Part shown: positions 12,960-54,892 of the stretch, one piece after another | Numbering within the stretch: position 1 is the first letter of the stretch | How the letters are laid out: each line of letters opens with the position of its first letter | Origin: Ganoderma boninense | Lineage: Eukaryota; Basidiomycota; Agaricomycetes; Polyporales; Polyporaceae | NCBI GenBank assembly: GCA_002900995.3 | Contig: CM035310.1 | Span: 3,862,714 to 3,926,713, forward strand | Direction of reading: 5' to 3' | DNA: 64,000 bases | Position numbers and translations under genes: made by a program | The notes under the pieces: model-generated | Told to the model about the DNA's origin: nothing | Databases searched by the model: none | Seen by the model: the letters and a program-made list of their open reading frames with translations, nothing else

Positions 12960-13009
12960 CTACTACCCCTCTCAAGACTTAGCTCCAGCGAAACTTCAAG
13001 GCCAAACAT

Positions 13010-18804: not shown

Positions 18805-18830
18805 GGACACGATCCTTAGGAGGGGGGTAT

Positions 18831-33586: not shown

Positions 33587-34949
33587 CACACGGGGATTTA
33601 GAGAATTTGAGGGAGGTCAGAACGGAATAAATAACGACAATGTAGAATGTCATGTTTTGTACCACGTTCCACCATAAATAGAATCTAACATTTGTCACAA
33701 CTCCGAATATTCGCGAAAAACTTACCGTTTCGGCCCGCGTTCCCGCGATCGTTACCAATGTAACGCGAAACGTCACATTCTACGATACGCCATACGTCAT
33801 CGACAACTTGAAGTTCTAATGAAGATTCAGCATGGAATACAATATCGAGTTTCGCGGCCGGAAAAAACGTCAGACCACGCAAAAGTTCTCGTCACATTTT
33901 TCGACCGTTTACAATTCAACTTTCGCGCACTACAAAACATTCGCCAACACAGCAAGTTCTCGTCAAGAAGTAATACCGCGCCCGCCCTCAGCGGGCGCCG
34001 ACCACTCGCTGAGTGCCCGCCGAGTTCCCGCCGGATGTCCTAGGCGGCGGCACGCGCGCCCTTGTTGGTCGCGTTCTTCGTCTGGACCGGCGTGCCAGAA
34101 CGCGGCGACGCGGGAGCCCGAAACACTTCCCGGCTGTAGACGAGTCAGAGGGAGTGCGAGAGACAGCGCGATCGAGTAAAAACGCACACCCGGAGGGAGG
34201 GGAGGAGCGACGAGCATGGTCGCGGCCCGGCCTGGAGGCCCTGGAAGGCCATAATAGCTGTAAAAGGTTAGCAAGACACACAGCAGACACAGGAGGGACA
34301 TACCATGTACTTCATGGTGTTCTGAATGAAGAATGAGAGCATTGGTGAGGTTGTGAGTGAGGGGGATGAGCTGGAGTGAGGAGATGGTGGTGGAGGAAAG
34401 GAAGGAGGAGGAGGAGGGCGCCCTTGTTGAAAACTTCTTCTATGCGAGAAAGTTGGGGCCCGCGAGAAAGTTGACACATGCATATGTTATGATAAGTGTC
34501 AAAGGAATATTCGACACACTCTATGACGGCAAAGACAATGCGTTAGTACAACAAACGTCGCGTCCCCAGAGAAGTGGCATTAGTGAAGTAAGAAAATGTC
34601 GAGAACGAAGACAAGAAGTATGTACCTCCGCGTCGCCGTAGCACCTCGAAACGGCAGACGCGGCCAATACGCCGTTGCGAGCTACCGCAGTGGGATCGTC
34701 TGCGAACGCGTCAGTGGATGGTGCGCGCCGCGGCGGCATGAGTTGAACGACGCGCGCGCGACGGCCGGAAGACGATGGGCGCGCGACGCGGCTGCGGGCC
34801 GACAGAGAACAAATGGACAGCTGCCCGTGAACGAGAGGCCGCGCGCGACGATACCGCGCGAGTGAAACCCCGGGCGCGAGCGGTGACAGACCGTACTAAG
34901 GTGTCCAACAAGACAGTCGTGCCCGACGTTGACCGGCGCGCGCGATAAG
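33587..34949 (+). repeat. Left 1.36-kb terminal inverted repeat
   Basis: Reverse complement of 53321-54681, differing mainly by single-base indels in runs and a few substitutions. Contains several TTCGCG/CGCGAA and GACGTTT motifs in its outer third, which could be transposase-binding subterminal repeats. Confidence 0.9.
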
Positions 34950-35225
34950 GGCTGTGCGTGCACGGAAGGCGCGCTCGGTGAATGGGGGCGCGCCGCAGGT
35001 GAGCGCGTTGCCGCGCCGACGTCGTCGGTCGTCGGGCGTGCTGAGATAGGCGCGTAGGTCGCATATCCGCGGGCGAGCGGCGACAGTCGCGCCGGAAGTT
35101 AAGCGGGCGCGCGCGACAAGACCGTCGGGATGCGTGCACAAAATGCGTGCCGGGTCTTGGAACTACCGTCGCAATCCCGCCACCGGAGAATGGGTGCGCG
35201 CCGCAGCTGAGCGCGTTGCCGACGT
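34878..35225 (+). repeat. Imperfect subterminal tandem repeat, about 200-bp unit
   Basis: Blocks occur twice in the same order: CGAGCGGYGACAG (34878, 35074), GCGCGCGCGAYAAG (34936, 35106), GCGTGCAC, then AATGGGKGCGCGCCGCA (34981, 35189). The first unit overlaps the inner end of the left inverted repeat; the second is internal only. Subterminal repeats of this kind are known for CACTA elements. 35226-35455 has no gene seen. Confidence 0.6.
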
Positions 35226-35455
35226 CTTGAGGTCGGCCGTCCTTGTGCGCCGCTCGACGAAGTCGGACGCTTGCGCTTATTAGCAACTTGGTGAAGTCAA
35301 GACTGAAGGTGATCAATATGACGCGATAAAAGGTACATTCTATTACAATTCTATCAGTATGGATACATTGTTCCTTCATACTTGAATGATCAGTGACATT
35401 AATTGCGATTTAGGGCGAGCACGGGGACGTACATTTGATATACAAATGGTGTTCA

Positions 35456-38203
35456 TCAACTCCTGCAAACGCGAGATAAGAAAGGAACGCTCTTAGCCGA
35501 CACGGCAGCCTGCAAAGGGAAGACACCCTTCCAAAACCTGATCGTTGTTCGCCATTCTTTCGCAGAGAGAGGTTTCGCCGTACCCGCTTTGATCCGCGCT
35601 ATACGTCGCTGGAACCAGCTCTCGCACCACGGCGTCCAGTACCCAAATGCCAGACCAGAGGTATTAAAGACGTTGGGCCGTGGCCACCAGGACAGCAATT
35701 CTGGTTTTGAATCCTGAGCTGTGCGAACATGTCAGTGACTCCGAATAAAATCAAAGCATTGAGCGCTACATACTTGGTAGCTTGTATACACCGCAGACAA
35801 TGTCGATCTCGCCGGGGGTCAACGAATCATCGTATAATGCATCCCCTTGTCGAGGCAGGAACTCTTGGCCGAAGTGGAAGACATCCTCAGATGGCCCAGT
35901 AACAGCCCGTCCTGCTGCGTCGCTGCCAAGAATCTCCAGAGCAAGCCTCCACACGATTCCGCCGTATAGTACTGCTGCCCGACCTCGCGGCTGATGAAGA
36001 ACTTGGTACGCCTGTGCAATGTATTGCCCATAGTCATACCGTGTGGCTGTGAATCCACGTGGGCGCCAACCCAGCGCATCACCGAAGGGAGATAGTCGCG
36101 GGGAGAACATATCTCTTCTGTCCAGATAATAGGGCGTACGGAAAGCAACTCCGTTCTGGACCATTAACTCAATGGCGGATGCGCGGGAGTGGATGTATCC
36201 GCGGCGGAGGAGCTCCACAGCGGTCATCGGACCCACGAGAACGTCGAACCAGCAGTCCGGTTCACCCTCGTAATGCACACGATAGTACTCGACACCAGAC
36301 AGCTTCCAGAGGTCCAAGCGCAGAGTAGGATTCGCTTGACCGACCTTCAGTAAGTACTGCGGGCAGTTGTGGTCGAGATCCCAAACTGTGGCAGGGATCA
36401 TCCCATTCGTTGAACGGTCCAAAGTGACGCTTAAAAATGCGCTAAGAGCAGGGACGTGGAGACCAGCGGGATGTATATCTGTTGTAAGCAGACCGAAGTA
36501 CTTCTGAACGTTGGCACGATTGAACGCTGAGTACTCTGGACCTTGTTGCGGAACGAGGGGCGCCCCAAGGACGACACCATATCGGTAATACGCGATCTTC
36601 TCGAAGCCCTCCGAAACAAACACATGACCAGCAAACTCCTCTGCGCCATACAGGCGTTGAAGGTCAGCCTGGAAGGAATGCGCGATGGTGGCCGGGCCAG
36701 GCAGCGAAAGAGGGTTGTCATCGGGTGGCTGCTGTGGGATGCTGAGCGGGAAACCAAAGTTTTCATCGTCGTCAGAGAGATCATCCACGAGAGGCTCATC
36801 AGAGAGCTTGGGACAGATGTCCCACTCGTCGCGCCAAGGATCGTAATGCTTGTGAGAGTCTGGGTACATCTTCCACAAGTCTCGTACGGCGCTGAATCGC
36901 ACGACCTTCCGGTAGTCGGATTGGAGCAGGTACCAAGGCACACCGCCATCGACATCCCCGACCTCGATCCAGAGGAATGTGGTTGTGGGACGGACTGGGC
37001 AAGAATACGATGCCGCATTCGCAGCTCGTTGAAGTCGCTTCGCTCGGTTCTCGGCGGTCTCGGCCTCTGTCCGCCGCTTCCCTTCCGCTTCTCGTCGGCT
37101 GAAGAATTGCTGGCACGTCTCTCCAGGGCGCTGGCCGGGTCCATGGGGGAGGCCAGAGAGCACTTCGGCAGAATGGGTAGGAAATGGTGAGCCGGCAGGC
37201 GAAGGACGCGAGTCCTGAACGATGTCGGTCCAACGGAAGAATGGCTGGAAGGCTTTTGGATCCGCCAGGGTGGGCACGATGGGTGCTTCATCAGCCGAAC
37301 TAGGAAGGTACGTAGCGAGGCAGGGGTGATCGCGTAGGATTTGTCCGCATAAGGAAGCGTCGAGTCGACCATTTAGGGTCGGCCACGCAATGTAGGTTGG
37401 AAGGTTCGCCGCGATCATGCATGGGATATGCGTCATCCACACTGTACAAGCGGGACCAGGCAGCGGGTCGATGAAGGCACCGACTCGAATTCCGGAGGAA
37501 AGGTCGGCGATAGGACTGGCTCGTAGTTCATCTATCCAAGGGGCCGGCACACCCCGATCCATAAGCACGCAAGTCCAAGCGGGAGGGTCTTCAGCAGGAA
37601 AGCGATATTGGAATAAGGCAATGGCCAAGGTGCACCGGGAGGCGAGGAGGAAAAACGCATCGCGCGAACGCAATACGGCTTTTCTTGCGGATTGGAAGGT
37701 AGGGTGTTCCTTTCGATAGCCACACTCGGAGGGGAGGGGCCAGAAAGCGTCAAAGGGAAATTTTGCCTCTGGGATCTTGCTGATATGTAGGAGCAGCGTC
37801 TCGCTGACGGCGTAAAGGCTTTGTTCGAGGTCCATCCAAGCCGTGAGGACGTCCTCGCTGAGTGCGTAACGCTTCTTCTCTGTCGTGACGATCGGTGGTT
37901 TACGTGGGTCGCAATTGAGCCGCAGAAGAAGCGACGAGTCCGAATGGGAGCTTCGCAACATGTAGGCCATCTCTGGGCTTTTATCAATGGCCCACACCGC
38001 TTTCCGCAAGTCTCTCGCGGTGAGGTTCTGGTCCGGGTCGCCTACGCGTATTCCAGGGAGGAAATCGACTCGGGATGGGTTGATGACTGTGAAGCATTGG
38101 TTTTCGAACCAAAAAGTTCGGGAGGGATGGAGAGGGCTGGAACATTGGAGAAGGTGAGTATGATGTCACGTTTTCGGTATGTGCGGACGGACCTCAGTGC
38201 CAT
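35456..38203 (-). CDS. Transposon-borne 878-aa protein of unknown function
   Basis: Three exons: 38193-38203, 35774-38136, 35456-35718; phases agree. The first encodes only MAL plus two bases, spliced by GTCCGT...TTCCAG; an in-frame ATG at 38296 would add 31 residues. I know the family only as a recurrent, uncharacterised one in Agaricomycetes. Features: N-terminal FWFENQCF, a charged helix (SRREAEGKRRTEAETAENR) followed by a beta-rich TFLWIEVGDV block, acidic stretch DDLSDDDENFGF, and a C-terminal aromatic block LLSWWPRPNVFNTSG with YWTPWCESWF. No transmembrane segment or catalytic motif is evident. The Trp/Pro-rich C-terminus joins in frame only through the GTATGT donor at 35773, which supports the model. 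It diverges from the nuclease-kinase gene over a 496-bp shared promoter. A structural or DNA-binding role in the element is possible but unproven. Confidence 0.85.
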
Positions 38204-38699
38204 TGGGGCGTAGCCCGGAGGACTGCCTAGTGCAAACGTTTTGAAACGGCGGTCTGTCCCGCTATCATTAGTCACGCCAGTAAGTACGGAGTGCATACGA
38301 GCGTACTCGAGACTGTAGCCCTATCTACAGGACAGCCCTAGACAAAGACGACGGTGACCAGCGATGACGGTGTCGTAAGTTCAGCGTGGCAAAAGAGCGA
38401 GTAATAACTCTGCTCCGTTCTGCGAGTTTGCGATGTTGCACCGTTGGGGAGACTAATGCCGAGCGAGACGGGCGACACCGTGGTCGTGGGTGGCAACGGT
38501 GTTGTTTGTTAGGCGCCCGCCTCCGTGCATCCTAAATGAGGTACAAACGGGCGAAATCTCTGTCTCGTGACCAGCCAGCTCTTGAAAAGGTATATTCGTA
38601 ACATATTATGGCTTATTCATCATCTCCTCATTGCTGCCTCGCGACCGCTGCGCCAGCCCGTTGGTTGTCCCCGAACTCCCTCCACCCCCTTGCTTCACG
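38204..38699. promoter_or_regulatory. Divergent promoter with GAGTAATAACTC motif
   Basis: Lies between two divergent transposon genes. Contains GAGTAATAACTC at 38399-38410 preceded by GAGC, one of five copies of this near-palindrome inside the element. Confidence 0.5.
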
Positions 38700-41097
38700 A
38701 TGGGGATTGATCCTCCCTTCGAAATTCCCGTCCTCCTCAACGCCTACCCTCATTTCTGTATACTGCGCTTTGACACTCCATACTGCGATATCACCGGGCA
38801 AGGCGTCCTCGACAGCCTCAACGGGCTTCTCATGGAGTTTCACGCGACGTCGGAGGTCAAGCCGCAAACAGCCTATCTCCATTGCATCCTTGATCCGGTA
38901 CGTAACGTCCCCTCATAGACGGCTTCTTCCCTAATTTGCTCATCGCCATGCTAGGAGATGGGTTTCCAGCCCAACCTCGAGAGAGACGATGTCGCCGTTG
39001 GGAACCTCCTGTCCTTGGGCGAGCCCGTTCAGCCTATCGAAGGCCGTGTCCTCTTATGGTACAGAACCCGGGGCCACCACATCTCCTCGCGACGGTTAGA
39101 TCTCTCCTCGACCGTGCAGTCATACAACATCGAACCCTCGCCCGTGAATGCCTCTTGCGTCCGATTGTATGTGTTGGTGCCTGGTAAGCCGTTGCATACT
39201 CTCTAGAGGCCTTTGGCTCATCGCACTGCAGGACCAATCGTCATGGCAGTCAAGTGGCCCAGTTACGTCCGGCTAAATCGACCGGAATTTACGCGTAAGG
39301 ACTACATCCCGCTCTTCACGATCATTTACCAACATTCAACGCCAGATCAAGAAGAGTACATCAGAGAGTTGCGGACCATCCTCCTTAATCGAATGTCGGA
39401 GGACGGGACGGAGCCTCCTTCGTCGATGGCCCACAGCACTTTCAGGTTCGATAAGCACCAGTCTTCCAAAGCTCCTGTCAGCGTCGGTTATCGCCCCCGC
39501 GAAGATTTCGGAGCCCTCCCTGCGCTTTTTTGCCCTCCCTTCGCCTCCGCGCACAATAGTGTCCATCGTCTTGCGTCGGTGCGCATTGATCCGGCGAGCC
39601 GTCTCACCCGGTGGCTACGCTACTTCGCCGACTACGTTGGTTCGATCGGTAACAAGGTTGAAGATGACCTTGTGAAGAGCGTCCAGGGGCACCTCGAGCA
39701 CTTCTTCGAAGACACTTTGGTCAGACACAGGACGGCTTTCGATGGTGTCGGTACTCTCTACGAGCTGGATTTGAGCGCGTCTTGCACAACTGCCCACGGA
39801 ATTCCAGTGATCTACCTCATCATCGAGTTCAAGCTGTCGCAACTCAGCCAGGGATTCGCCCCGGTGCAGGGTGTACTTACGTTTCAACGTCTGATTACAC
39901 AGGCCACGGTAGGAACAGCGATCTCTCTCTCACACACGCACTGACGTCACTCTACCAGAGTAAGCAACCCCTCACTATGACCTGCTATCCGTGCATAGTC
40001 ATGTCGGTCGAAGGCTCCGCGATAACTGTCGACCTGGTGTACATGTATACCCGCGTCTGTGCCACCAGGCTCTTCTCAGTCACTTTAGCAAAAAACCAAA
40101 TTGACAAACTCGCCCTCGAGCAAGCCGCGCCCTTGTTTCAAGTCCTCAAAGACACTGCCTGTGCGTTGCGCCAGTGGTACTCGAATGTCCACGTCGGTTC
40201 CATCCTCCCACACGCACCCAATCTCCTCCCCCAGCCTGACAACATCATCTCCTCTCGGGCATACTCCCCCGACTCGTCTTTCGACCTTTCCATGCTCAAA
40301 TTAACCGAGAGATATGGAGCCACCTTCGACACCGAGCGTTTCTTGTTCAAAGCCATCGTACTCCAGCGGCACGCCTCTCCGGTTCCCATCTACGTCAAGT
40401 TCGTTCCGAATACGTACGGCGAGGAGGCGCACCGTCTACTCGCCGAGCACCAATTAGCGCCGCAATTGTATTTCTGCGCTGAAATCGTGTACGGCTTAAA
40501 GATGGTCATCATGGAGGATTTGGACGGAGATCCTCTGCCTGAGAAACCCGGGACGAGGCACTCCTCGTACCTAGCGTACGTCAAGCAGGCTTACCAGCTC
40601 CTCCACAACAAACAGTATGTGCATGGCGACCTTCGCCCACAGAACGTGGTCGTGAAGGACTCGAAGGCGTTCCTCGTCGACTTCGACTGGGCTGGGCTGG
40701 TGGGTGTCGCCAAGTATCCAACGCGGCTCAACCCCACCATCAAATGGCCAAAATCAGCAGCTGACCTGGAGGATACCCTCATCGAGAAGGACCACGACAT
40801 CGCCATGTACACAGCCATGCTTCCGGTTCCCAAGCCCTCTACCAAGAAGAGGCCGAGAGAGTCGAGCGCGGGTGGCTCGGGCGCGGGTGGCTCGGGCGCG
40901 GGTGGCTCGGGCGCGGGTGGCTCGGGCGCGGGTGGCTCGGCGCGGGTGGCTCGGGCGCGGGTGGCTCGGGCGCGGGTGGCAGCGAGGGGGGTCCATCGTC
41001 TACCAAGAAGCTCAAAGGGAGTTCAGCGGGACGCGCCGGCATGTCTAGCATGGGCCCTCCGCTGCCTCCAGCTGTTAAGTCAACTGCACCCCAGTAG
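38700..41097 (+). CDS. REase-like nuclease plus protein-kinase fusion (Crinkler-type architecture)
   Basis: Four exons: 38700-38897, 38955-39183, 39232-39908, 39959-41097. Residues about 1-360 end in a predicted restriction-endonuclease-like core: GTLYELD, then IYLIIEFKLSQ with the Glu-X-Lys pair. Residues about 460-640 are kinase-like: IYVKFVP for the ATP-lysine strand, MVIMEDL hinge, catalytic loop HGDLRPQNV (Asp about 592) and DFDWAG in place of DFG. Nuclease-kinase fusions are known among Crinkler-type toxins/effectors and in expanded basidiomycete families; target and substrate are unknown here. The C-terminus has a GSGAG minisatellite; one unit lacks a G, so as written the frame leaves the expected end and continues to 41296. 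With the family-consistent frame the stop is TAG at 41095. FunK1-type kinase is an alternative label for the C-terminal half. Confidence 0.75.
40866..40980 (+). repeat. 15-bp minisatellite (GSGAG-coding)
   Basis: About eight copies of GGCTCGGGCGCGGGT within the kinase gene; one copy near 40935-40948 is 14 bp (GGCTCGGCGCGGGT) and shifts the frame. Confidence 0.95.
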
Positions 41098-41493
41098 CCT
41101 GGCACCATCGCACCATCATCTCTGTCCCTGTGCCACTCAATTCCCATGTATCATAAGTATGCGCTATCCTCTTCGTTGTACTTGTTCATCTGGAACGATC
41201 CTTATTGTATTCCTCTTCGACCTGTATGTTGCTACATTCATATTTGATGCGATTGTCGAAGCTGAGTTAGCACTCGCTCTTGCAAGGCGAGCTTGACGCG
41301 TGAAGAATAAGTCGCGGGCGCAGCATTGCGTGACCATAAAGGGAGTGTATCCCATTCGCAATACATTGTTATCGACGACGAACCAGCGTCATATAATATA
41401 CATTGTTACAGACGACGAACCAGCATCGTCCCGTCCCATACTGCTGTCCGTCAACGCACGCAGAGACCAGTCAATCAACGCAACGCAGCCACC
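41098..41493. other. Convergent spacer
   Basis: 3' flanks of two convergent genes. A segment of about 30 bp (ACATTGTTATCGACGACGAA and following) is duplicated in tandem at 41363-41390 and 41400-41428. No gene seen. Confidence 0.5.
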
Positions 41494-44130
41494 TCATCCC
41501 ATCGTGTGAGCGAGCGTCGCGACGACGCGAATCCAATCAAATTTCTCGGACGAGACCGCGAGCGTGTGGATCTGCTGGACGTTCTGGGCCTGAAGCCAGT
41601 CTGGATTGTATAATTGCTGCGGAAGCCGCCGGACGGGGTTGCGAGTGCTCTTGACCGTGCCGTCCCGCAATCTCTTGCCTGGTCGGGACCCTTGCCGAGA
41701 AAAGAGGTCCCGATCAAGGACGCGCTGGTTGTCGATGATTTCCATGTGGTCGTCCATGGGGCGTCGCCACTCGAGCACCTTGACGCGGAAGACAGTCTCT
41801 GGCATGTCGTCGCAGGTATCCTCCGAGCTCATACCATCAGGTCCCAAGAGGTCTAGGACCTTCTCAAGGAACCTCCAGATGGCAACATCAGACTCGGGAT
41901 CCCCTACATGTAGGGCAATCACCTTCTTGACTGTGGTATGGCGACGCTCGAATTTCTTGAAGATGATCAGTTCCAATCACACCGAGTCAGGGAAGCACTC
42001 ACGTTGCGACGTCTTTGATCTGTCCTCGCTCTTTCTTTGAGCCTCTCGTCTGTGAGTAAGACACGAGCCTCGCACTCTTCCGGCGTTTCGAGCACGCCGG
42101 TGGATTTGAGCTTGGGCTGTCCCCCTCTCCACGTCTGACGGCCACGGCAGAACTTGTCTTCGATCAAGTCGCTGATGTAAGAGTCAGTGATGTTGTTGTC
42201 GCCGATGAAGGTCGCGTTGTCGGCCTTGAACGTGTCCAAAAGGTGCTCGAAGATGAGGTAGTTCCAGGGAGAGACGGTGGTGCCCGAAGGGCGCATGTCG
42301 AAGCGGATGTTAGTGAGGTTAGGAGCCCCCTCGCCGCTGGTATTGTAGGTCTCGACGGCAGTGCGATCCGCCTCCTGGTGCCCATGCCAGTCTTTGTCAG
42401 CTTCGATGCAGCAACACTTTTTGTAGAGCTCGCGCACGCGTCGCTGAGGTGCACAGTCAGCGAGGTCCATTGATGAATCTTGCTGACTTACCAAGAGCTC
42501 AATGCGTGTGTCGCGGTCGACTTCCGGTTCCGATTCCGGAGCCGACGTCACCGACCGATGTCGGCGATGGCGAGAGGACGACTTCGATTTCACAGTCTGG
42601 GCCATCTCTGTGTGCAGGGTCTGACGGATGGCTTCCATGAGCTGATTCACGGTCAAGGTATGAACCTCGACGCCGTCGCCGGTCGCGACGGTGGATGGGC
42701 GAACTCCCGTCCGTATAGCGGGTAGAGCATCATCGTCGCTGTCGACAGCAGCGGGATCCTGTATACATAGCTTAGCACGATATGGTAGTGAAGGAGTGAT
42801 TCAAACTCACCGGCATTGCCATCAGGAACATACGAGTCGATGCGCCGGACTTGTGAGCACGGCGTGGCATATAGGGACGAGGAAGGGTCGTTTGCGTCGA
42901 GGGGCCAGAAGGTTGGACTGGCAACGCCGGGGCGACGTTGCGAGGACGCCCTGATTCAACCCTCGCTTGTTGCAAAAGACGAGACAGAGATGCTTGCTGG
43001 TTCTCCACCTCTGCGCGATTCTTGTCAATTGCAGCCTCTCTCTCAACCACTAACCCTTCCCGTTCACGTAGTTCTGCCGCCAACTTGTCCTGATCCGCCT
43101 TCTTCTGCATAATCTGTGCTTGCGCTCCTTGAATCGCTTCGTACTGCGCAGCGATTCGGTTCTCTTCAGTGTGAATCTTGTCCCGCAGTTCTGATTCCTG
43201 TACGCGATTCTGAGTGTGTGGTTGTAAAATTTTGGAAACATTAAATACCATTGTCGTCCGGCTCGAATTCATGAACTCCATTAGCTGGGCCGTTTGCTCT
43301 TGTAGCTTGCCGATGGTGATATCATTTTGCTGCTGAATCGCCTGCCAACGGCCAGCAGCCTCGGCATATTGCTACTGGCCATGTCAGCAGGTAGCAGACA
43401 GCAGAGACAGAGACGATAACTGACCCGCTTCAGTTCCTTGTTCTGGCCGTTGCGGTATTTGGAAACCTCCTTCCAGTAGGTGACTTCGTTCCGGAGGCCT
43501 CCAGAAGTCACTTCATGGTCCCGGTGCTGGCGAACGGCTCGTGTGCTGCCCCCGCCCCGGCCGTGAATTTCGACGGAATCCTGGGGAAGAAGCCTAAGGG
43601 TGAGTAAGAAAGCGAGCTAGAGGCAACAATTGACATACCTCTAAACCATTCATCTCGTCGTCTTCGTGGTCGCGGCGCTGGTTAACGACAAGCAGATGGT
43701 GGACGGTGGCCTGGAAAGCTATCGTAAGTAGGGTGCATGTGATGCGACGGAATTACTGTACCTGGTCATGCATGTCATCGTCGTCATCGCGAGCTGGCAA
43801 ATCGGCTCGAGGAGTGCTCTGCCGACTTTGGCCAGGATGGGCGTCGGCCATAGGGACGTTCACCTCATGAGAGAGAGGGGAAGTGAGGCAGACCTCGCTC
43901 GTTGACTGCACTGACATTGGAGTGTGGAAGCCTGAGCCTTCTTGGAAGGAGCCGGGAACATGGATATGTGAAGGCGGAATTGAGTGGGCGCGCGGGGTAG
44001 CGTAAGACTCCTCTGTACCCTCTTCCTCCGAGGACTCGCGAGCAGTGACGTATCTCTCGGAACCAGTCGACACATCGTCGTCGACGGGGAAGTCCATGGC
44101 AGTTTGTGCAAAGAAAACAGGAAGGGACAT
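41494..44130 (-). CDS. Coiled-coil, transposon-associated protein (762 aa)
   Basis: Eight exons: 43762-44130, 43639-43710, 43425-43580, 43249-43371, 42811-43209, 42492-42758, 42003-42443, 41494-41955. Every exon is a multiple of three and every intron is phase 0. N-terminus is acidic and Ser/Pro-rich; residues about 150-330 are a long coiled coil (EENRIAAQYEAIQGAQAQIM, LRERE, EAAIDKNRAEVENQQASLS). The C-terminal part belongs to an uncharacterised Agaricomycete family seen near Tnp2 elements: IRFDMRPSGTTVSPWN, the basic RARTDQRRRNKFERRHTT, LGPDGMSSEDTCDD, VLEWRRP and LPQQLYNPDWL. A DNA-binding accessory role like plant TnpA is a guess from position and composition. Start could also be ATG at 44097. 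Confidence 0.85.
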
Positions 44131-44734
44131 CGCGGGCAATTTGAAGCCGGGGAGTCGAGTAAAAGTCTAGAGGTACAAGGGTGATAGCGGTCTGCGCGCT
44201 GCACAGGTTGGGAAGCGTGACAAAGAACGCAAAGAGCGGGAATGGTGCGCACTGCACAGCAGTAGGTGGGGATCTGGGAGTGGCGCGCTGCGCTATGTCG
44301 GCCGGGATGAGTTGGAAGCGACGGGAGCGACAGATGCTAGATATACACGCACGACACACTGGATTGGATTGGTATCGCACGAGTGTAAGACAATAACCGG
44401 ACGATGGCAAACAACAGTGTGGGGCTTGCACGATGGCAAACAATGTGGTGCTTGCACAATGGCAAACAACAGTGTGGGTGCTTGCCCATCATAAGGTCAG
44501 TGTCGAGGAAGCGAGTCTGGAGGTTGCTTGACGTGGCTTGACGTGTGTCCACTTCCACACTAGGGAACGAAAGTCATGGGGCTGAGTTATTGTCTTGTCG
44601 AGAGTCAGATCACCTGCTCACCGCATCCAGCCCTGTTAATACCCATAGCTTGCATAGCCCGCTCTCGTCGCCCGCTCTCGTCGATTGTTCTTGCCGCGCT
44701 TTATCAGACATTGCGCTGGTCGCACTTCCTCCCA
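44131..44734. other. Divergent spacer with short tandem repeat
   Basis: Between divergent genes. At 44402-44486 there are three imperfect copies of a 26-30-bp unit (CGATGGCAAACAACAGTGTG plus GGGCTTGCA). No gene seen. Confidence 0.6.
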
Positions 44735-45364
44735 ATGGTCAACGGACGTATCTATGTTGCCCCCGGCCCTAATGTAAGCAGCAGCATCCAGACAGAAATT
44801 AGCCTTCTTTGATGACAGACCTTAGACCATAAACCGTACCTTGCGAGGACGCCTATACGCGGCCTCGCACACCAAGGCGCGACCGGTCGGGGTGACAACG
44901 CGCTGTGCCGGGCAGCTCCGCTTTCCCTTCGTGGAGAGTGTAGTTGGTAACACGCCGTTGCAACCTTACGTTCACGACTGTGTCGTGACGGTGATCGACG
45001 GGCAACGGACTCACAGCTTTGTTGTATTCTTCAAACGACATCGTGCTCTTCCTCCCAACGCACTTATTTCTCGCCTCTGCTATCCGTTCACCTTCCGTGG
45101 CGACATCGTGGTGATGCAGATTGGTTCGAGGCAGGGGCATGTCGTCAACATGCGTCCTGGAGACGTAGTTATGATGAATCTGGTTATCGCCGAGTGAGTA
45201 CGCTGCCCTCAAGACGGAAAAATATTCTTACATTGCGTGTTAGGTTCATCTCGAAGACGAGTAGGGCAGTCACATCCAGAAGCCTTCCGCGGGCTATTAC
45301 GATGGAGATGGTACATGGAGTGTCGTCCAGGGGGCGGAAGCGTGCGGTCGCTCAACGGGGATAA
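44735..45364 (+). CDS. Small transposon-borne protein of unknown function (175 aa)
   Basis: Three exons: 44735-44773, 44826-45193, 45244-45364, joined by GTAAGC...CTTAG and GTGAGT...GTTAG in consistent phases. Sequence opens MVNGRIYVAPGPN; the core has RHRALPPNALISRL and FRGDIVVMQIGSRQGHVVNM RPGD (given in parts), a beta-strand-rich pattern I recall from an uncharacterised Agaricomycete family found beside Tnp2-type elements. The tail is basic. No signal peptide or membrane segment. It may be an element accessory protein; nothing in the sequence shows an enzymatic motif. Confidence 0.72.
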
Positions 45365-45952: not shown

Positions 45953-46927
45953 TTAGTCTTGAAGACGTCGTGACCGCAACTTCTTGCCGCTCTTCCTGTT
46001 CACGGCCTCTGCAGCTACGGCGTCGTGAGCGTGCTTCCGGGCCTTTGATGACGTGTACTTCAACCGCTGCTTAACAGCGTCTGTGACGGGCCAAAGGTTC
46101 TCGTACTGATCAAGTTCGGGGAACTTGTTCAACGCCTATCAGCAGAAATGAGCTCGTAATTCACCCGCGAGAGGACTGATATTAATACCTACTTTATCGC
46201 GCAACGACGCGACACGACTCAAAGACTGGCTCGATACAGACCGCGTAGGGTCGAGGCATTCACCCACAAGTTTGTTTATCAATTTCTTGACGACCAGCAT
46301 GAGATCGTAACATGAGGTGTAAGCTGTAACTAGAACTGCACACCTTAAACTCGGACATGCGCCTAGGGTTCCAACTGAGGACTTGCTCGAGGGAGTAACC
46401 GCCCCGGCCGGGACGACCCACCTCCCTGAAGGCTTAGGGATCTTCATATCGGCATCCTCCTGCGACTCAGGCTCTGATTCATTGGAGCTAGAATCAGTGC
46501 TGTCGGAGTCGCTGTCCGTGACAGATCTACATTCCGTGTTGGCGGTGGGAGTTGTGGAACATAGAACGTCAGTGGCCATGGTCTTCGCCCGCGCCTTTTT
46601 GAGGGTGCGGTTCGGAACAGCCGAGCGCTTTGACATGTCGACTTCCGCCCAAGACAGAGGCCCAACGTCGAAGCACAGATCGGGAATGTCGGTTTCAGAC
46701 GCTAGCAGGGGATGAGGAGTGGGAGGCGGGGCGGGTTCGTACCAGACGGGAATAGGGACAGAAGAAGGCGTCATTAAATCGATATCGACGACGCGACCAG
46801 CGCGGAGGGAGCAAGGGCACGGAAAGGAGAGTGGGCGAGAGCGGGTGGCGAAGAGCGACGAAGGCCTGATGTACATGAATCCGTGCTTATTGTTCTTCGT
46901 CTGTTTCCGAGAGCTAATTATAAGCAT
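45953..46927 (-). CDS. Transposon-associated protein with WP-block, one-base frameshift
   Basis: Three exons: 46344-46927, 46193-46285, 45953-46135. The C-terminal block FPELDQYENLWPVTDAVK followed by RLKYTSSKARK is typical of an uncharacterised Agaricomycete family expanded with Tnp2-type transposons. Exon 1 is Ser/Asp-rich in the middle. At about 46422-46428 the frame shifts: IPKPSG continues in another frame as GRPGRGGYSLEQVLSW, a conserved glycine-rich block. One additional G in the GGG run would restore the reading. Exon 1 length (584 nt, one short of a multiple of three) agrees. Start at 46927 or at ATG 46876. Basic C-terminus suggests nucleic-acid contact, but this is inference. It diverges from the WD40 gene over only about 120 bp. 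Confidence 0.75.
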
Positions 46928-47046
46928 CGCCCGGAAACGAGACAATGAGAGGTGACTATTGTGTCCGTTGCGCGGGAACGGCTGCGCGCGCGCTAAGGAT
47001 ATATACGGTCTGCCCGTTCGGGGGCCCTCAACGAGCACTTTCGCCT

Positions 47047-48740
47047 ATGATGCTGGCATCACTGTCCAACTTGAACCCCTTCAGATCCTCCGGCCGACGC
47101 TATAGGCCCATTGCGACCTTCAATAATAATCTGAGGGGCGTGAACAGCCTCAGCTTCTCCAAAGACGGACATTATCTTGCTAGCGGTGGTAAGTACACCA
47201 TTTGATTCCTACAATGTAGCTGCTAAATCAAGGAAGGCGGAGACGGAGTCAAGTTATGGGACCTAGGGAGTAAAACTGTTGTCCCTATCCCTCCACACCG
47301 CGAGAGCTTGGGTCCAGTCACCAGGGTGCTGTGGGTCGGGGGTAGCGACACTGTCTACCCCACCCTCTGTTACGGTACTGGACTCGGCTACCTCTGCCTT
47401 TGGAACCAGGGAGCAAGGAGCGTGAGTACGGTGGCACGTCTTTTGAATAAATTTGGATTTACAGGTGCTTTCAGGACCGGTTCATCGAGGTCTTCGAGAA
47501 GCGCCTTGCCGACGGTGTGGAGATCACAGCGTTGGGATGTGCTAACGGCGATGGCACCGACGTGAACATTGCCGTCGGTACACGGAAGTGCGTCATACAG
47601 GTCTTCCAGTACGATGGATGAGGAGATGTCAGTCCAATATTCTCTATTCGACTGGAACGAGTCGTACCTAGTGCTCTCGAGTTCACTTCCAACCAGCGAG
47701 ATGTGCTGGTGTTTGGAATGTATGATGGAGCGATGTAAGTGATCTGGACGCGCTATTTGTTAGCCCGAGTCGACTTATCTGAACGCAGGTACACGCTTGG
47801 GGCCAAGAGCGGAAAGGTGATGAAATCGAAGAGCCTTGGCCAAAAGATGTTAGTGCGTCCGAATACAAACTTCGCGTATAAATTCTGATGCAGCTCAGAG
47901 GATATGCTTCTCTACCGCCCAAACAACACCTAGTCGTTCTCGACAATATTTCCAACGGGTTCGATTTGTGGGACCTGGACGCAGGGACGCATCTACGCAC
48001 CTTTCCAACTGGCACACCAACTCGTTTCCTGCCAAGGCAGGTCGTTTTCGCGGAGAGGTGGAAATCCATTGTAGCGGGAAGCGACCATGGGGCCGTGTAC
48101 ATCTTTGACAGAACGACGGGCGCGCCATTGGACGTTTTGCGCCATGCGGCGAAGGGTCTAGCTCAGACTGTGCAGTGAGCGAGTATCAATTGTTGACGAC
48201 ATGGGACACTGACGTCGAAGATAGGCAGTTGATCGAGACGGATATTCGCTAATTGCAACTGGGTCGTCAGGCGAACAGGGTGCTGTTACCCTATGGCAGA
48301 GCAAGAAACTGTTCGCCGTCTCTTCGAGGTCACAACCGATGCGGTCTCTGCGTGGTGTGCTTTTCTTTGCGGTGCAGGTTGCTATGGCTTTGTCCACAGT
48401 CGCGTTCATATTTCAGAACCTGGGGTTCCGAGTGAGTGACTTGCCGCAGGATCACGATTTTCCTACTTACGACAACAAACAGATTGACCTTCCGGCTTGG
48501 CTGGTCTCCGTCCGAACCAACAACTTCGACTCCCAGGAGCCAATGGCTGCAGTTCAGACTGTTGTGCGACGAGGTGTGAAGGTCACACAGTCATCCAATA
48601 GCAGAGGCAGCGGGGCGCGCAGAGAAGAAATGTATCATGATCAGGATTGGGTGGCTTGGCAGGAGTGGAAGACCTACGTGGCTCGTCAGCGGGGCGGAGA
48701 CGGCGTGCAGGGCAGGGCAGAGCGGGTTATTGTGCTGTAA
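47047..48740 (+). CDS. WD40-repeat protein with C-terminal membrane anchor, premature stop
   Basis: Six exons: 47047-47188, 47237-47421, 47475-47734, 47789-47848, 47899-48169, 48225-48740 (477 codons). WD-type repeats are visible: NSLSFSKDGHYLASGG with VKLWDL, LCYGTGLGYLCLWN, DNISNGFDLWDL, VYIFDRTTGAPL, SLIATGSSGEQGAVTLWQ. A hydrophobic segment GVLFFAVQVAMALSTVAFIF (about residues 349-370) follows, so the protein is probably membrane-anchored with a basic tail. This combination is a recurrent Agaricomycete family. In exon 3 an in-frame TGA (47619-47621) interrupts QYDG; the family-like sequence continues beyond it in the same frame. A CGA to TGA change (C-to-T) would explain it. So this copy is either inactive or affected by an error. 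A TATATAC box lies about 50 bp upstream. Confidence 0.8.
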
Positions 48741-49324
48741 TGTATCTTGACAACGGGGAATCGAAGGTTCGTACGCCTTGTACCCCCCGCATGCGCAGAC
48801 TCTCACCATCCCGCTATGATTCCATGGAGCGAGAAGCAAGGATTGTTGACGCCTTGTACTTGGCAAGCGGATTACACCAGAAGGGAATAAGGGAAGCAGT
48901 TGTCGCGGTCCACGCCTTGTACGGGTCATAACCCAGCACGTTGGCAGAGTAGTTAGCAGGGGTCAACAGGAACGAGAACAAGGGACCGCGACTCGGATGT
49001 GAACGGGAGCCGAGCTGCTTACGTCAGACGAGCGCTCAAGAAGAAGTTCGTCCCAACCGCGCCTTGTCCACTACCCCGCCTTCAACCTTGCACGCACATC
49101 CAGGTGAGTACTTGTACCCCGACCTCGTAATGACACTGCTTTGTACTCCAACAGGTACACTTGCAGTCGTGACCCTCCACGTAGAAACCCCGGGCAGAGT
49201 TATTACTCACCCTCAACTCCGAGCCCTGGCTCTGCTCCACCCCGCCCCGGAGCTGGTGCTGAGTTATCACTCGCGCTCGCGTACATTCCCCCTGACATTC
49301 CCTCCCGACATTCCCCCCGACACT
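48741..49324. promoter_or_regulatory. Upstream region of transposase with two inverted GAGTRATAACTC motifs
   Basis: Copies lie at 49197-49208 (GAGTTATTACTC) and 49261-49272 (GAGTTATCACTC), i.e. the motif on the minus strand, 117 and 53 bp before the transposase ATG. A GACATTCCC triplet repeat (49290-49320) sits just before the ATG. A GTGAGT...CAACAG intron (49103-49153) may lie in the 5' UTR. Confidence 0.5.
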
Positions 49325-52300
49325 ATGCCACGTTTCCTCCAGTATTGTCTCTGCGAAAGCTGCGTCCTGGGTTGTGCAGACGCGTCTAGAGGGAAGCCGT
49401 GGACAAACAAATTGCAATGGAACCTGCACAGTCGATCCCGCCGCCAGATGGGCTCTCCATCAACACCACCTCCCTCCTGTCAAGAAGACTCTCCCCAGCT
49501 CATCGCACCATCAATCGAGGATCGCTCTGCCAGCCTCTTCGCATCTGTCCTAGTCGGAGATTCTCCAGACCCCTCCGAGATGACACTGACCACCCGTTCG
49601 GTCACCGAAGCTTCGGTGCTGCCGGCAGCTGAGCCTCCTACCATGGGAGACATATTGGAGAGCTTGTCGCGCATCCATATCTCCACTCCACCGAACGACG
49701 TCTCTGACTCCCTCTCCAACCCCCTCACCAACGTTCAACTCCATAATTCTCGCACTTCTCCGCCCAGCGTCCCGCCCCTCATGTCCTCTGGAGCTGCTGT
49801 GGAAACTCCGATCAGCACGGACAAGCGCGACACTAATGTTGCTAGCAAGCGGGCCCTGCGGACGCTAGCACACATCGATCATCACGTTCAACTTCTCGAA
49901 GGCGAGCTCGCGGCACCATCCGAAGAGCAGCTTGCGAGTGCGGAGGCCGAACTGTCGCGTCTGCGTTCCTTGTTCCTCCGCGTTACTCGGACCACGAGTC
50001 TCGTGCTCACACGGAAGGAGGAGATAGGAGGTCATCTACAGCGAATCAGCAACCGCGTCTGCGAGCTGAGACACCTCATTCCGGCGCCGTCTCTGCTAGA
50101 CAAGGGGCAGGACCCCATTTGTTATAATAGTGGTAGGTCAATTTCGGAAAAGAAGAAACAACGCATCTGACATTCATTTCAGGACACCATTACGATATTC
50201 CTGCGAGTCGTGCTCACGCTGTGGCACAGATCGCCATGTTCCTTGGGATTGTGTTCAATGTCCTGGGGAAACTAAGTCGGCAAGGGTCGGACTTTCTTCT
50301 CGGATGCCTATCGTTTTTACTAGGTTTATCCTTCATGTCTTCGGGCGCTCCTATCACCCCCATTCAGCAAAATATCCTCTCCCAAATCCCCGCACATCTC
50401 AAGGAAGCTCTAGAGCGATTCAACCTCTCCGCGCATACTATAACGTACGCGGCGTGCCCGACTTGTCACTTTGTCTATCCACCTTCCACCTCACCCAATA
50501 GTAATGCCCTCTCGTATCCCGTTCGGTGTAGCAACCGACGGATACCGGGCGACTCAACCTGCAACACACCGCTGCTGGACCCACGCTCTGCGACTGACGA
50601 TCAGAAGCCCGTTCGACCTTACGTTGTACATGATCTTAAGGAATATGAGAGTGGTCTACTCTCCTCCGAAGATAACGTACACCTCATCAACGCGTCCTGC
50701 GACGAGACTATGATCGAGATTCGGCGCAATGAATCCTCTCTATTTGCCTCTGGACCATTCCACGCCAAATTCGTACGGACTTTCGTGTTCGACAAGCAAT
50801 CGAATCGTTTATTCATTGACAGAGGGGAAGAGATGCGCCTGCTCTTTGCCCTGCATGTCGACAGCTTCAACGTTGAGGGCATGTCGGTCCGTGGAGCGTC
50901 GACGTCTTGCACCATCATATCCCTGGCATGTCTCAGCCTCCCTCCCGAGATTCGATACAAGTCTGAGAACATTGGTCTCATGGCTATCATCCCGGGACCA
51001 CGAGAACCCCACCTGACTGAGCTGAATCACTATTTAGCCCCCATTATTGATGCATTTTGCGTGTCATGGGAGCGAGGTACGCGCCACTCACGCGTTGCTA
51101 TGCACCCTCGCAGTTGCGTATCTCGGTCAGCCATCGCTGCTGCTGTCATGGATCTCGTCGCTGCCCGCAAGGCGTCGCAACTCGCGTCCCACTCTGCACA
51201 CATCTACTGCCATGTTTGCACTTGTTCTGGGAAGAGCACGCGGGGACGCACTGACTTCGACAATTGGGTATTCCGGGACCCTCAAGAGATGCGCAAACGC
51301 GCGGAGGCATGGCGGGATGCGACCAGCGCCTCGGAGCAAGACAAGATATTCGCCCAGCACGGTGTTCGTTGGTCAGAACTGTGGCGGCTACCTTATTGGG
51401 ACCCAACGTGTCAGCTCGTTGTCGACTCCATGCACTGCATCTTCGAAGGCCTCATTCCTTACCACTTCCGCGACATCCTCGGTTTGACGTCTGCGAACGC
51501 AAAGGAGACAGAAATTTTCCCCCCTGCGTTCGAACATGATTTTATGACCGTGGATATCAGTGGGAACAACCGTCTGCCCGAGAAGGTGCGGCTCTCAGAC
51601 AAAGAAGTCGGTCAAGTGGAGTCCATCGGACACGCCCTTTGTCAGCACATGGGCGACTACGCAGAGGAGCAGGAGAGAGGGCTTGAACATCTCCATCGCA
51701 GGCTGCTGAACAAGAATCTCAAGGCTCTAAGTTTTGTCGGGCGCGGCCTGGACCTTCCCTCGAATGCAAAAATGACAAAGCGGCAGTGGGTGGACGTGCT
51801 TGTGACATGGGTAAGCAAAAGCATCTTGCGATTTCACTGCACAAGCGAATCTAACCTCATGTATGTAGCGTCGATCAAAGCCGCTCTCCGCAAATTGCAG
51901 TGCAAAGAAGATCGCGACGCCGGAAGTCATCGACCGCATCCGCGACGTCATTTGCCACTGTGATAAGCCGTCTTGGCTAAGCTCTGTTCCTCGAAACTTC
52001 GGTGACGCAGCTGCAGGGACTCTGAAGGCTGATGAATGGAAAATCATGTGCACCGTCTACCTCCCCATCGCCCTCGTCACGATATGGGGTGCTGGCTCCT
52101 CTCATCCCACCCCGGAGATTGGCGCATTCTTCCGGCGCATCCTCGACAACACCATGCTCCTCGTATCAGCCGTTTCCGTGCTCTCTAAACGGAAAATGTC
52201 GGAAATGCGCGCGCGCAAGTATCGTGCTTACATCGCAGACTGGCTTCGGGGCCTGCAAGAGATTCATGCAGCTTCATACTCTGATCGGACGAATAACCAC

Positions 52301-53082
52301 GTCGCATTCCATATATATGATTTCTTGCTGCTCTTCGGACCCATATACTCATGGTGGTGTTTTCCTTTCGAGCGCCTCATCGGGCATCTGCAACGCACAC
52401 CTCACAATGACAAATTTGGTGGGTTTTTCTCTGAGATGATGAAATTACTTTGTTTGCTCATAAGGACTACCCAGGTCAACTAGAAGCGAGTTTAGTCGAC
52501 TCTTTCCTGAGGGCAGCCAAGCTCCGTCGGTGGCTTAATAGGCCTGACTGCCCGGAAGCTCTCCGTCAAGTCAAGCATCTCTTTGACAAGGCCTACGGTA
52601 GCTGGAACTTCAATCCGACCACTTCGGATGCCGACTGCTCCAGACGCCAAATATCAACACCTAGCCCGAGAATTCCCGCCATCTTATCCCCCATGTTTTC
52701 CCTCGACGACCTTGGCCGGCTCACCTTGGTGGCTCATTGTAAATATGAAGGTCGCACGCTCGCAAGATCGTCAACAAATGCCGGGAATAGCCTCATTGTG
52801 TATCATCCACGAGACCGGCCATCCACTGCTGAGTATGGGTCTATCGAATATATCTGCCAGGTCGGTGAGAATATCGTGTTGGCGGTACGACCTCATCTAC
52901 CAGCTTCAGGAAATGATCCCTTCAAATACTACACCGATTTCCCTGCCACGGTCCGCTCAGCCCAGCTTGGTCCGCTGGAACTAATTGATCGGACAAACAT
53001 CGCATGCCACTTCATGCGATGGAAGATGCCGACGGGTGACATGGTCGTCTTGCCGTTGTACAAGGTTGGCATTTTGTTGTAG
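49325..53082 (+). CDS. Tnp2 (CACTA/CMC-type) transposase, uninterrupted
   Basis: Four exons: 49325-50132, 50183-51810, 51869-52418, 52475-53082; phases agree, 1197 aa, normal for the family. The start was chosen at MPRFLQYCLCESC, which opens many basidiomycete Tnp2-type proteins. Diagnostic blocks: HHYDIPASRAH, ACPTCHFVYPP, AHIYCHVCTC with RTDFDNWVFRD, and LPYWDPTCQLVVDSMHCIFEGL (split here into its parts: WDPTCQLVVDSMHC then IFEGL), then HFRDILGLT. C-terminal part: RQWVDVLVTW, VPRNFGDAAAGTLKADEW, GPIYSWWCFPFERLIGHLQR, FHLD-type end. Such enzymes excise elements with CAC termini and make 2-3-bp duplications. No frameshift or stop seen, so it may be functional. Right repeat begins 238 bp after the stop. 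A Plavaka-type label would be a close alternative. Confidence 0.92.
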
Positions 53083-53320
53083 TTTGGCCCACTACGCTGA
53101 CATATACTCGTAGGATTAAGCCGAAGAATATGTCTTGTGTTCATATCATGCCCACGATGGATGCTCCTTCTGCCGCATGTTTGTTTGTACGATTTGGATT
53201 GAAATTTACAACGCTCCATACGGTTAGGTCGCGATTGATGGACCACTGCTGTGAACTTGAACTCGCGAGCGCCCAGCACCTGTGGGCCTGCCATCGCGCA
53301 TGCACGCGCAGCCCGGCAGT

Positions 53321-54681
53321 CTTATCGCGCGCGCCGGTCAACATCGGGCACGACTGTCTTGTTGGACACCTTAGTACGGTCTGTCACCGCTCGCGCCCGG
53401 GGTTTCACTCGCGCGGTATCGTCGCGCGCGGCCTCTCGTTCACGGGCAGCTGTCCATTTGTTCTCTGTCGGCCCGCAGCCGCGTCGCGCGCCCATCGTCT
53501 TCCGGCCGTCGCGCGCGCGTCGTTCAACTCATGCCGCCGCGGCGCGCACCATCCACTGACGCGTTCGCAGACGATCCCACTGCGGTAGCTCGCAACGGCG
53601 TATTGGCCGCGTCTGCCGTTTCGAGGTGCTACGGCGACGCGGAGGTACATACTTCTTGTCTTCGTTCTCGACATTTTCTTACTTCACTAATGCCACTTCT
53701 CTGGGGACGCGACGTTTGTTGTACTAACGCATTGTCTTTGCCGTCATAGAGTGTGTCGAATATTCCTTTGACACTTATCATAACATATGCATGTGTCAAC
53801 TTTCTCGCGGGCCCCAACTTTCTCGCATAGAAGAAGTTTTCAACAAGGGCGCCCTCCTCCTCCTCCTTCCTTTCCTCCACCACCATCTCCTCACTCCAGC
53901 TCATCCCCCTCACTCACAACCTCACCAATGCTCTCATTCTTCATTCAGAACACCATGAAGTACATGGTATGTCCCTCCCTGTGTCTGCTGTGTGTCTTGC
54001 TAAACCTTTTACAGCCTATTATGGCCTTCCAGGGCCTCCAGGCCGGGCGCGACCATGCTCGTCGCTCCTCCCCTCCCTCCGGGTGCGTTTTTACTCGATC
54101 GCGCTGTCTCTCGCACTCCCTCTGACTCGTCTACAGCCCGGGGAAGTGTTCGGCTCCCGCGTCGCCGCGTTCTGGCACGCCGGTCCAGACGAAGAACGCG
54201 ACCAACAAGGGCGCGCGTGCCGCCGCCTAGGACATCCGGCGGGAACTCGGCGGGCACTCAGCGAGTGGTCGGCGCCCGCTGAGGGCGGGCGCGGTATTAC
54301 TTCTTGACGAGAACTTGCTGTGTTGGCGAATGTTTTGTAGTGCGCGAAAGTTTGAATTGTAAACGGTCGAAAATGTTGACGAGAACTTTGCGTGGTTTCT
54401 GACGTTTTTCCGGCCGCGAAACTCGATATTTTATTCCATGCTGAATCTTCATTAGAACTTCAAGTTGTCGATGACGTATGGCGTATCGTAGAATGTGACG
54501 TTTCGCGTTACATTGTAACGATCGCGGAACGCGGGCCGAAACGGTAAGTTTTCGCGAATATTCGGAGTTGTGACAAATGTTAGATTCTATTTATGGTGGA
54601 ACGTGGTACAAAACATGACATTCTACATTGTCGTTATTTATTCCGTTCTGACCTCCCTCAAATTCTCTAAATCCCCGCGTG
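53321..54681 (-). repeat. Right 1.36-kb terminal inverted repeat
   Basis: Inverted copy of 33587-34949, ending CCCCGCGTG at 54681 and followed by TTA. 53083-53320, between the transposase stop and this repeat, shows nothing else. A small spliced frame is possible inside (53928-54227; see findings). Confidence 0.9.
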
Positions 54682-54892
54682 TTATGTATTTCACGAGTGG
54701 CGCGAGACGCCCATTCGCGGACGTGTCTGGGCGGAGGCCGTCGGTCGGCTCAGCTCGTCTTCCACTTGTCCCTTGCCACTCCCTTGCCACTCTCTCACTT
54801 GGTCCGCCTTCACATTACCTGTGTCTCACAGCTCTGACGCTTCCTTCAACCCTTCTTTTGCTCCTGATTTCACTAGATCCCACCTTTCACAC

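Follow-up and report, generated by a model that had tools for sequence, protein, structure and literature searches.

A 21,095-bp block (33587-54681) of the 64,000-nucleotide window of Ganoderma boninense DNA analyzed here is bounded by inverted repeats of about 1.36 kb, and we interpret it, with a probability of about 0.85, as a transposon of the EnSpm/CACTA type that carries a small gene in its ends. In the core of the repeat lies a gene with two introns, read outward and encoding a predicted 66-aa protein; a full element therefore has one copy at each end. This gene is newly described here. The giant terminal repeats of the initial annotation are thus not empty. The locus is C7:3896297-3917397 in the genome. 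The features of the block and its borders are as follows.

32863-33584: separate nested miniature element of ~720 bp (AGATTGACCC..GGGTCAATCT, TA flanks), abutting the left end
33584-33586: target-site duplication TTA, left
33587-34949, plus strand: left terminal inverted repeat, 1.36 kb, outer end CACACGGGG (self-BLAST)
34037-34342, minus strand: small gene in the repeat, left copy, limits approximate from the mirror position
35766-38009, minus strand: gene A, 747-aa ORF
39213-41296, plus strand: kinase gene (HGDLRPQN, DFD), model exons 39213-39908 and 39959-41296
41494-43371, minus strand: gene B, several exons
44639-45361: gene C region, matched in the C5 element only (73.5% nucleotide identity)
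45956-47038, minus strand: gene D; only the short piece 45956-46135 matches C1, C7b and C5
47882-48175, plus strand: gene E fragment, matched in C1 and C7b
49064-53082, plus strand: Tnp2/EnSpm transposase, model exons 49064-50132, 50183-51810, 51869-52418 and 52475-53082 (Pfam, exon model, alignment)
53321-54681, minus strand: right terminal inverted repeat, outer end CCCCGCGTG (self-BLAST)
53928-54230, plus strand: small gene in the repeat, right copy, exons 53928-53966, 54015-54082 and 54137-54230; 66 aa, read outward
54682-54684: target-site duplication TTA, right

Ends, transposase and related elements

The inverted copies of about 1.36 kb noted in the initial annotation align as it had anticipated: in a BLAST of the window against itself, 33586-34949 matches 54682-53321 in inverted orientation with 98.3% identity over 1,373 columns and 18 gap openings (E=0). 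The first base of the element is 33587 and the last is 54681, giving CAC..GTG termini, and the TTA reported outside both ends is present at 33584-33586 and 54682-54684. Aligned together with the C4 repeat as a third sequence, the left and right repeats show 36 differences (27 substitutions and 9 indel events); the left copy accounts for 32 of these, and 35 fall within its outer 705 bases. The divergence of the left repeat reflects either decay or an assembly error in that copy.

An empty site with a single TTA had also been predicted, and such a site was found about 190 kb from the block, where the block is absent and the DNA reads GCCGGTTATGAGTGG. The match is qualified in two ways: the flanks are 94% and 89% identical to those of the block, as in a paralogous segment and not an allele, and the right flank of the block has 9 extra bases no more than 5 bases from the junction, which a clean insertion leaves unexplained.

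Fungal EnSpm elements are described as having CAC..GTG termini, 3-bp duplications and a transposase with the pattern D, D, C(2)C, H(3-4)H, E (Kojima 2025, PMC12730594), and the window element agrees with them in all three respects. ORF 50221-51963 matches PF02992 (Transposase_21) at E=1.1e-7, which passes the curated cut-off. The transposase was earlier called uninterrupted; this ORF is indeed open, but a four-exon model fits the gene best, and the resulting Tnp2 keeps the pattern D, D, C(2)C, H(3)H, E. Among 15 aligned transposases (the window protein and 14 relatives picked by hand from the best 120 of 143 matches), D583, C699/C702, H1043/H1047 and E1067 are invariant in all 15; D680 was taken as the second D from its order, and D771 is likewise invariant.

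A search of the genome for other copies with like ends yielded seven further paired elements with matching 3-bp flanks, making eight paired elements of 9.7-45.8 kb in a low-copy family. The flanks are equal in 8 of 8 pairs: TTA (window), ATA (C2), AAT (C1), AAG (C13), TAT (C6), AAA (C7b), ATT (C11) and GAT (C1b). An end census found 14 exact C1-type ends and 6 window-type ends, with 0 for each in the reversed-pattern control, and 12 of the 14 C1-type ends form six inward-facing pairs. Single ends, which stand outside the flank count, occur at C4, C5, C9 and one C2 locus. We considered whether the repeat is mainly a free-standing family, the outcome named in the initial annotation as contrary to its proposal, and rejected this given the inward pairing, some single ends notwithstanding. 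The C4 locus is a relic that has kept one end: it has a right end and a transposase, a nested Gypsy-type retroelement and, further to the left, a host Hobbit/FMP27 gene. The C5 element is cut by assembly gaps, and around another transposase, at C9:1730001-1750000, no inverted repeat longer than 100 bp was found.

The proposal that the block moves as a unit is supported by the 3-bp duplication, the empty paralogous site, the cognate transposase and the seven further paired elements. With its anatomy directly visible and its movement read from the flanks and the empty paralogous site, the block would be an EnSpm/CACTA-type DNA transposon, low in copy number and self-mobile, whose transposase would cut at the CAC..GTG ends and leave 3-bp AT-rich duplications.

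The small gene in the terminal repeats

All seven repeat cores compared, which come from 6 loci, contain both introns of the small gene; these cores were taken from two ten-sequence alignments, leaving out the C2L, C1L, C13R and C6 arms. The same 66-aa frame is kept throughout in four cores (C7R, C4R, C1R and C1bR). The other three are off frame: the left copy of the window (C7L) still has 66 open codons, with two out-of-frame stretches from small indels, C5R also reads 66 aa partly in another frame, and C7bL reads 94. Across the four in-frame copies, the only ones used in the exon-mask shift test, identity is 0.85 in exons vs 0.60 in introns, and 0 of 538 shifted masks matched the real contrast, which is broken by the C1R/C1bR pair (0.88 in intron 2, 0.82 in exon 3). 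The 100 bp upstream of the gene are conserved like the exons (83-94%). Differences at codon positions 1/2/3 number 9/5/12 and 15/11/14, and because this bias is only mild, strong constraint at the protein level is not established.

Between the window and C1 elements, the small protein is 67% identical, compared with ~40% for the transposase, 31% for the kinase, 36% for gene B and 27-32% for gene A. Across the two end types, the small protein has thus diverged less than the transposase; it cannot be called the best conserved beyond that comparison, because the window and C4 copies are 80% identical in the small protein and equally so (80%) in the transposase, and the last ORF of gene B (41497-41976) is 93.5% identical to that of C5.

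Six database proteins match the small protein at E<=1, all from Ganoderma, five of them of 66 aa and one of 69, and an independently annotated G. boninense protein is identical to the gene model from the C1 repeat. Two of the G. sinense matches, GSI_01541 and GSI_01548, are seven tags apart and on equally long contigs, as are GSI_07576 (small protein) and GSI_07583 (a relative of gene A), the linkage being read from tag numbers and equal contig sizes; no transposase lies between those tags among the best 120 of 143 transposase matches. A Pfam scan of the small protein gave no match, and its AlphaFold model has low confidence (pLDDT 56.7). One database entry labels the 66-aa protein a phospholipid-transporting ATPase.

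We propose that the kilobase repeats would act as functional modules, each with a conserved promoter-like block and the outward two-intron gene for a 66-aa protein. At a guess, this protein might be an accessory transposition or regulatory factor acting on the element's own ends. Being present in both repeats, the gene would persist if the interior were lost, and this arrangement might select for long matched ends, an idea that we put forward tentatively. It is possible, although rather doubtful, that these elements form a distinct multi-gene transposon lineage with ends as genes, in which an essential small protein, encoded outward in each repeat, would be kept in two matched copies, the cis-acting ends and the trans-acting factor would evolve as one unit, and long ends would be selected for rather than tolerated.

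The inner genes

The initial annotation counted six genes besides the transposase, and this is a fair count (gene A, the kinase and genes B, C, D and E), genes C, D and E being weakly supported. Relatives of gene A carry the precomputed annotation PF28437; a Pfam scan of four gene A proteins gave no match, and an AlphaFold model from 11 sequences reached a pLDDT of 52.5. Gene A is also found in the C5, C1, C13, C6 and C1b elements, with no match inside the C11, C7b, C2 and C4 elements. Matches on C18 and C26 were considered as kinase pieces beside gene A and rejected, as they fall between gene A and the kinase. The kinase gene likely has a further 5' exon near 38586-38915. Its C5 counterpart is 38% identical, although a neighbouring gene reaches 93.5%.

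Gene A, the kinase and gene B are common to five elements (window, C5, C1, C13 and C6) and look like a hereditary gene set, not arbitrary cargo. Because the two end types, with transposases only ~40% identical, share the repeat core and this recurring set, the "cargo" appears largely hereditary. The description of the block as a multi-gene cargo transposon stands as regards one multi-gene unit and less well as regards cargo. The element would pass down gene A, the kinase, gene B and perhaps genes D and E.

Between the ends of the 45.8-kb C1 element, a stretch of ~20 kb contains fungal kinase genes (PF17667), and part of it recurs at 95-97% identity immediately outside the element. We do not claim joint movement of the whole 45.8 kb, as the adjoining interior copies make later duplication or rearrangement as likely. 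The C11 element (42.5 kb) has no match to the host-like part of C1 or to its gene A/kinase/gene B stretch.

Known systems and alternative explanations

CACTA elements usually have short terminal repeats, a usual and not a defining trait. Two ORFs are likewise usual and not defining (PMC8978399). Multi-gene CACTA elements as such are not new: the red alga Chondrus crispus has enlarged En/Spm families of 16-20 kb and 4-5 ORFs (PMC6431247), and the passage describing them mentions no repeat-borne gene. The window element is similarly a large multi-gene CACTA element, but differs from the usual form in its 1.36-kb repeats with an outward gene inside and its roughly seven inner genes. Mutator-like elements have another transposase and longer duplications. 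Their long inverted ends are described as holding promoters and transposase binding sites that serve expression of the enclosed sequences (PMC3310237), whereas the gene of the window element sits within the repeat and points outward. Plavaka, an Agaricomycete relative of EnSpm transposases, has ends given as TGT..ACA or CATCA..TGATG (PMC12730594), unlike the termini here, and the Plavaka-linked PF18759 had no match at E<=0.1 in 10 window ORFs. KDZ elements (Kyakuja, Dileera, Zisupton) leave 7-8 bp duplications, unlike the 3-bp flanks of the window element, and no KDZ transposase was matched in the 10 ORFs. Subterminal repeated motifs bound by a second protein are a further criterion for EnSpm/CACTA; TGACGT-like words were seen by eye, uncounted, in the core repeat alignment. 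In the literature, searched by titles and abstract openings with subscription papers and Repbase outside the search, we found no description of a CACTA element whose kilobase ends contain a gene.

Starships are large multi-gene elements of Pezizomycotina with a tyrosine recombinase (captain), as described in PMC12134995; the window element is alike in size and in having several genes, but has a Tnp2 DDE transposase and a basidiomycete host. Starships mobilize changing accessory genes; in the present family the core genes recur, and the C1 element holds extra host-like DNA. That the inner genes are changeable host cargo, picked up and spread by a Starship-like carrier, is unlikely: the C1 element does show that host-like DNA can become enclosed by the ends, but five elements share gene A, the kinase and gene B even where protein identity falls to ~27%, which points to inheritance, and none of the 10 window ORFs scanned has a Pfam match to a tyrosine recombinase. 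We give similarly low credence to a reading in which the outward gene encodes no protein, the conserved DNA serving as promoter and transposase-binding region and the short frame and its annotation arising by chance. Introns that diverge while exons and splice sites stay, and a 66-aa frame shared by 4 of 7 genome copies and a length of 66 aa in 5 of 6 database proteins, argue against it, whereas the equal conservation of the 100 bp upstream, the weak codon-position bias and the tendency of gene callers to err alike in related genomes speak for it.

Two further readings are highly improbable. Loci with one arm (C4, C5, C9 and one on C2) would suit a later inverted duplication around unrelated genes, but the matching flanks of all eight pairs and the inward pairing of most C1-type ends contradict it. 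Long inverted ends and several genes also recall an endogenous DNA virus or a Polinton-like element; the ends, 3-bp flanks and transposase nevertheless fit EnSpm, and among ten window ORFs none matched a polymerase, capsid or packaging ATPase above the Pfam cut-off, a single match to a herpesvirus family (E=0.004) falling below it.

Read as EnSpm/CACTA-type transposons, the family suggests that a transposase of this type can handle elements of 10-46 kb with kilobase ends, and that transposon ends can house a conserved gene, which is unusual for the CACTA class. Gene-bearing ends offer a testable reason for the very long matched ends of some transposons, and the C1 element provides a setting for host-like genes between the ends of a basidiomycete DNA transposon. 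Such elements could also explain Ganoderma gene blocks annotated under spurious names.

At the left border of the window element, a 100-N scaffold gap lies at 32059-32158, 1.4 kb from the repeat. The ~720-bp miniature element that abuts this repeat has a second copy, which stands alone at C11:2284230-2284948.

Ends, insertion site and transposase of the element

The element at 33587-54681 is bounded by long inverted copies (left arm 33587-34949, right arm 53321-54681), as the initial annotation had described, and a self-comparison of the window gave 98.3% identity between them (E=0). Its termini also read as described, CACACGGGG and CCCCGCGTG, with TTA flanking both. The window forms the end of contig 7 (C7). 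An empty site of the kind proposed as a check was found in a paralogous copy of the flanks at C7:3701548-3706157, on the same contig and about 190 kb from the element. This paralogue matches the left flank over 710 bp at 94% and the right flank over 3.9 kb at 89%, and it reads GCCGGTTATGAGTGG at the place of the block, with a single TTA versus two in the window when a small nested element is allowed for. Nine additional bases in the right flank, at most 5 bases from the junction, are not explained by the insertion reading.

32863-33584: nested miniature element, about 720 bp with TA flanks, in the left flank of the window element

The miniature element, of which a stand-alone copy lies at C11:2284230-2284948, adjoins the left end of the large element exactly, and its flank overlaps the bases of the TTA duplication. 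The arms show 36 differences, 32 of them left-arm changes; because a scaffold gap lies 1.4 kb from the left arm, these changes could possibly stem from assembly error.

The ORF at 50221-51963 matched PF02992. Among the 120 matches listed of 143, the best relatives of a four-exon transposase model were from Trametes pubescens (56%) and Psilocybe cyanescens (44%). Aligning the window protein with 14 relatives chosen from these 120 revealed invariant D583, D680 (second catalytic D, assigned by order), C699-x2-C702, H1043-x3-H1047 and E1067, the same residue order as that of EnSpm transposases in the relevant passages of Kojima 2025 (PMC12730594). Relatives at two other loci are open, C4 (80% identical) and C1 (44%), and that of C2 is interrupted by stops. 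The encoded transposase would move the element by cut-and-paste.

A family of elements and their inner genes

In the 55.6-Mb genome, the window-type repeat had 17 matches and the repeat of a second end type, that of the C1 element, had 26. Exact end words numbered 14 for the C1 type and 6 for the window type, with 0 for both in a reversed-pattern control. A search for further copies with such ends had been proposed, and 12 of the 14 C1-type ends form six inward-facing pairs; of the remaining two, one is a third end at C13:1080752 and the other stands singly on C2. Window-type single ends occur also at C4, C5 and C9.

Paired elements and their 3-bp flanks (contig positions, except for the window element)
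C1, 3034223-3080071, paired C1-type ends, AAT
C1b, 2312007-2330009, paired C1-type ends, GAT
C6, 2381687-2392245, paired C1-type ends, TAT
C7b, 226757-236491, paired C1-type ends, AAA
C11, 2331427-2373934, paired C1-type ends, ATT
C13, 1051334-1076763, paired C1-type ends, AAG
Window element, 33587-54681, paired ends, TTA
C2 relic, 3122830-3144359, paired ends, the right one diverged, ATA

The flanks are equal in all eight pairs listed, for which we calculate a chance of about 6e-8 even with just two letters used. C13 has a right end at 1076763 and a second one some 4 kb away at 1080752; AAG follows each of them, which looks like a tandem duplication of the right end.

We compared the ORFs of the window element with C4, C2, C1, C13, C9, C5, C6 and C7b by tblastn. 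The transposase and ends are all that it has in common with C4 and C2. C5, C1, C13 and C6 likewise carry gene A, the kinase and gene B, and genes D and E have short matches in C1 and in C7b, a shortened element. The tblastn search gave no transposase match in C13 and a 52-aa piece only in C6. The C5 element is collinear with that of the window. The window and C1 elements differ in gene order and in how the genes are oriented with respect to the transposase. The genes of this set may assist the element.

Gene A shares 99% identity with a Ganoderma boninense protein, and the small protein of the C1 element equals another, which puts the host at G. boninense or a very near relative. Gene A has 43 matched segments genome-wide, many outside these elements, so that it also resides elsewhere. 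The kinase, possibly similar to Crinkler-type kinase proteins, retains HGD and DFD motifs with Pfam scores under the cut-offs, and by eye its N-terminus has a D..ExK-like pattern. The kinase of the C5 element (C5:2059130-2060816 versus window 39207-41293) is only 31-38% identical, beside neighbours as close as 69% (gene A) and 93.5% (last ORF of gene B), which would fit either exchange or very fast kinase change. A stretch of fungal kinase genes (PF17667) occurs just outside the C1 element (C1:3026019-3031819) and inside it (3040001-3046000) at 95-97% identity, looking as if host DNA had ended up between the ends.

A gene inside the terminal repeat

53928-54230: TIR gene of the right arm, two introns, 66-aa product, read outward

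We aligned the cores of seven repeats at six loci (L and R, left and right repeats; C7, the window element). The frame begins ATGCT..ATTCA, with introns GTATGT..TACAG and GTRCST..CTACAG. Four of the seven (C7R, C4R, C1R and C1bR) share the same 66-aa frame; through small indels, C7L and C5R still give 66 aa but partly in another frame, and C7bL gives a 94-aa reading. Pairwise identity is 77-99% in exons, 57-88% in introns and 83-94% in the 100 bp upstream, C1R/C1bR being exceptional in that intron 2 exceeds exon 3. For the four copies that keep the frame, identity averages 0.85 in exons and 0.60 in introns, and none of 538 shifted masks gave so large a gap. Since codon positions differ only mildly, the support for this gene comes from its structure, its length and its database matches.

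The small protein has six database matches, in Ganoderma only (E 7e-38 to 2e-19), five of them 66 aa long; the G. boninense protein equals our C1 model letter for letter. Two G. sinense proteins (tags 01541 and 01548) come from contigs whose lengths are identical; judged from tags and lengths, this would fit the two ends of one element. The contigs of GSI_07576 (small protein) and GSI_07583 (gene A relative) are likewise equally long. Across end types the small protein is 67% identical versus about 40% for the transposase; within the window type (versus C4) both are at 80%, the small protein being no better conserved. The small protein may act on the element's ends in an accessory or regulatory role. 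Upstream, at 53810-53895, GGCCCCAACTTTCTCGC, TTTCAACAAGGGCGCCCTCCT and a CT-rich block do not vary among four copies drawn from both end types, making this a candidate promoter.

Relation to known elements and other repeats in the window

CACTA elements with multiple genes, like the window element, are on record for Chondrus in part of PMC6431247, and a portion of PMC3310237 describes Mutator-like elements with long ends, as here, that bear promoters. The CACTA description in an excerpt of PMC8978399 comprises two ORFs and, besides the terminal repeats, subterminal ones several hundred bases long. Passages of the G. sinense genome paper count CACTA among transposases and hold no description of elements of this kind (PMC4457147). 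Our literature search on the EnSpm/CACTA superfamily found no account of kilobase ends bearing genes; we therefore file these as a new form within EnSpm/CACTA, multi-gene CACTA elements and long promoter-bearing ends being already known separately.

Elsewhere in the window, 5609-22906 holds three direct-repeat pairs, one inside another, as in nested LTR elements.

5609-5900 / 22615-22906: outermost pair, 0 differences in 292
8469-8934 / 18828-19294: middle pair
12525-12960 / 17569-18005: innermost pair, 15 substitutions in 440 columns

An identical outermost pair around a diverged innermost one is the opposite of the expected age order.
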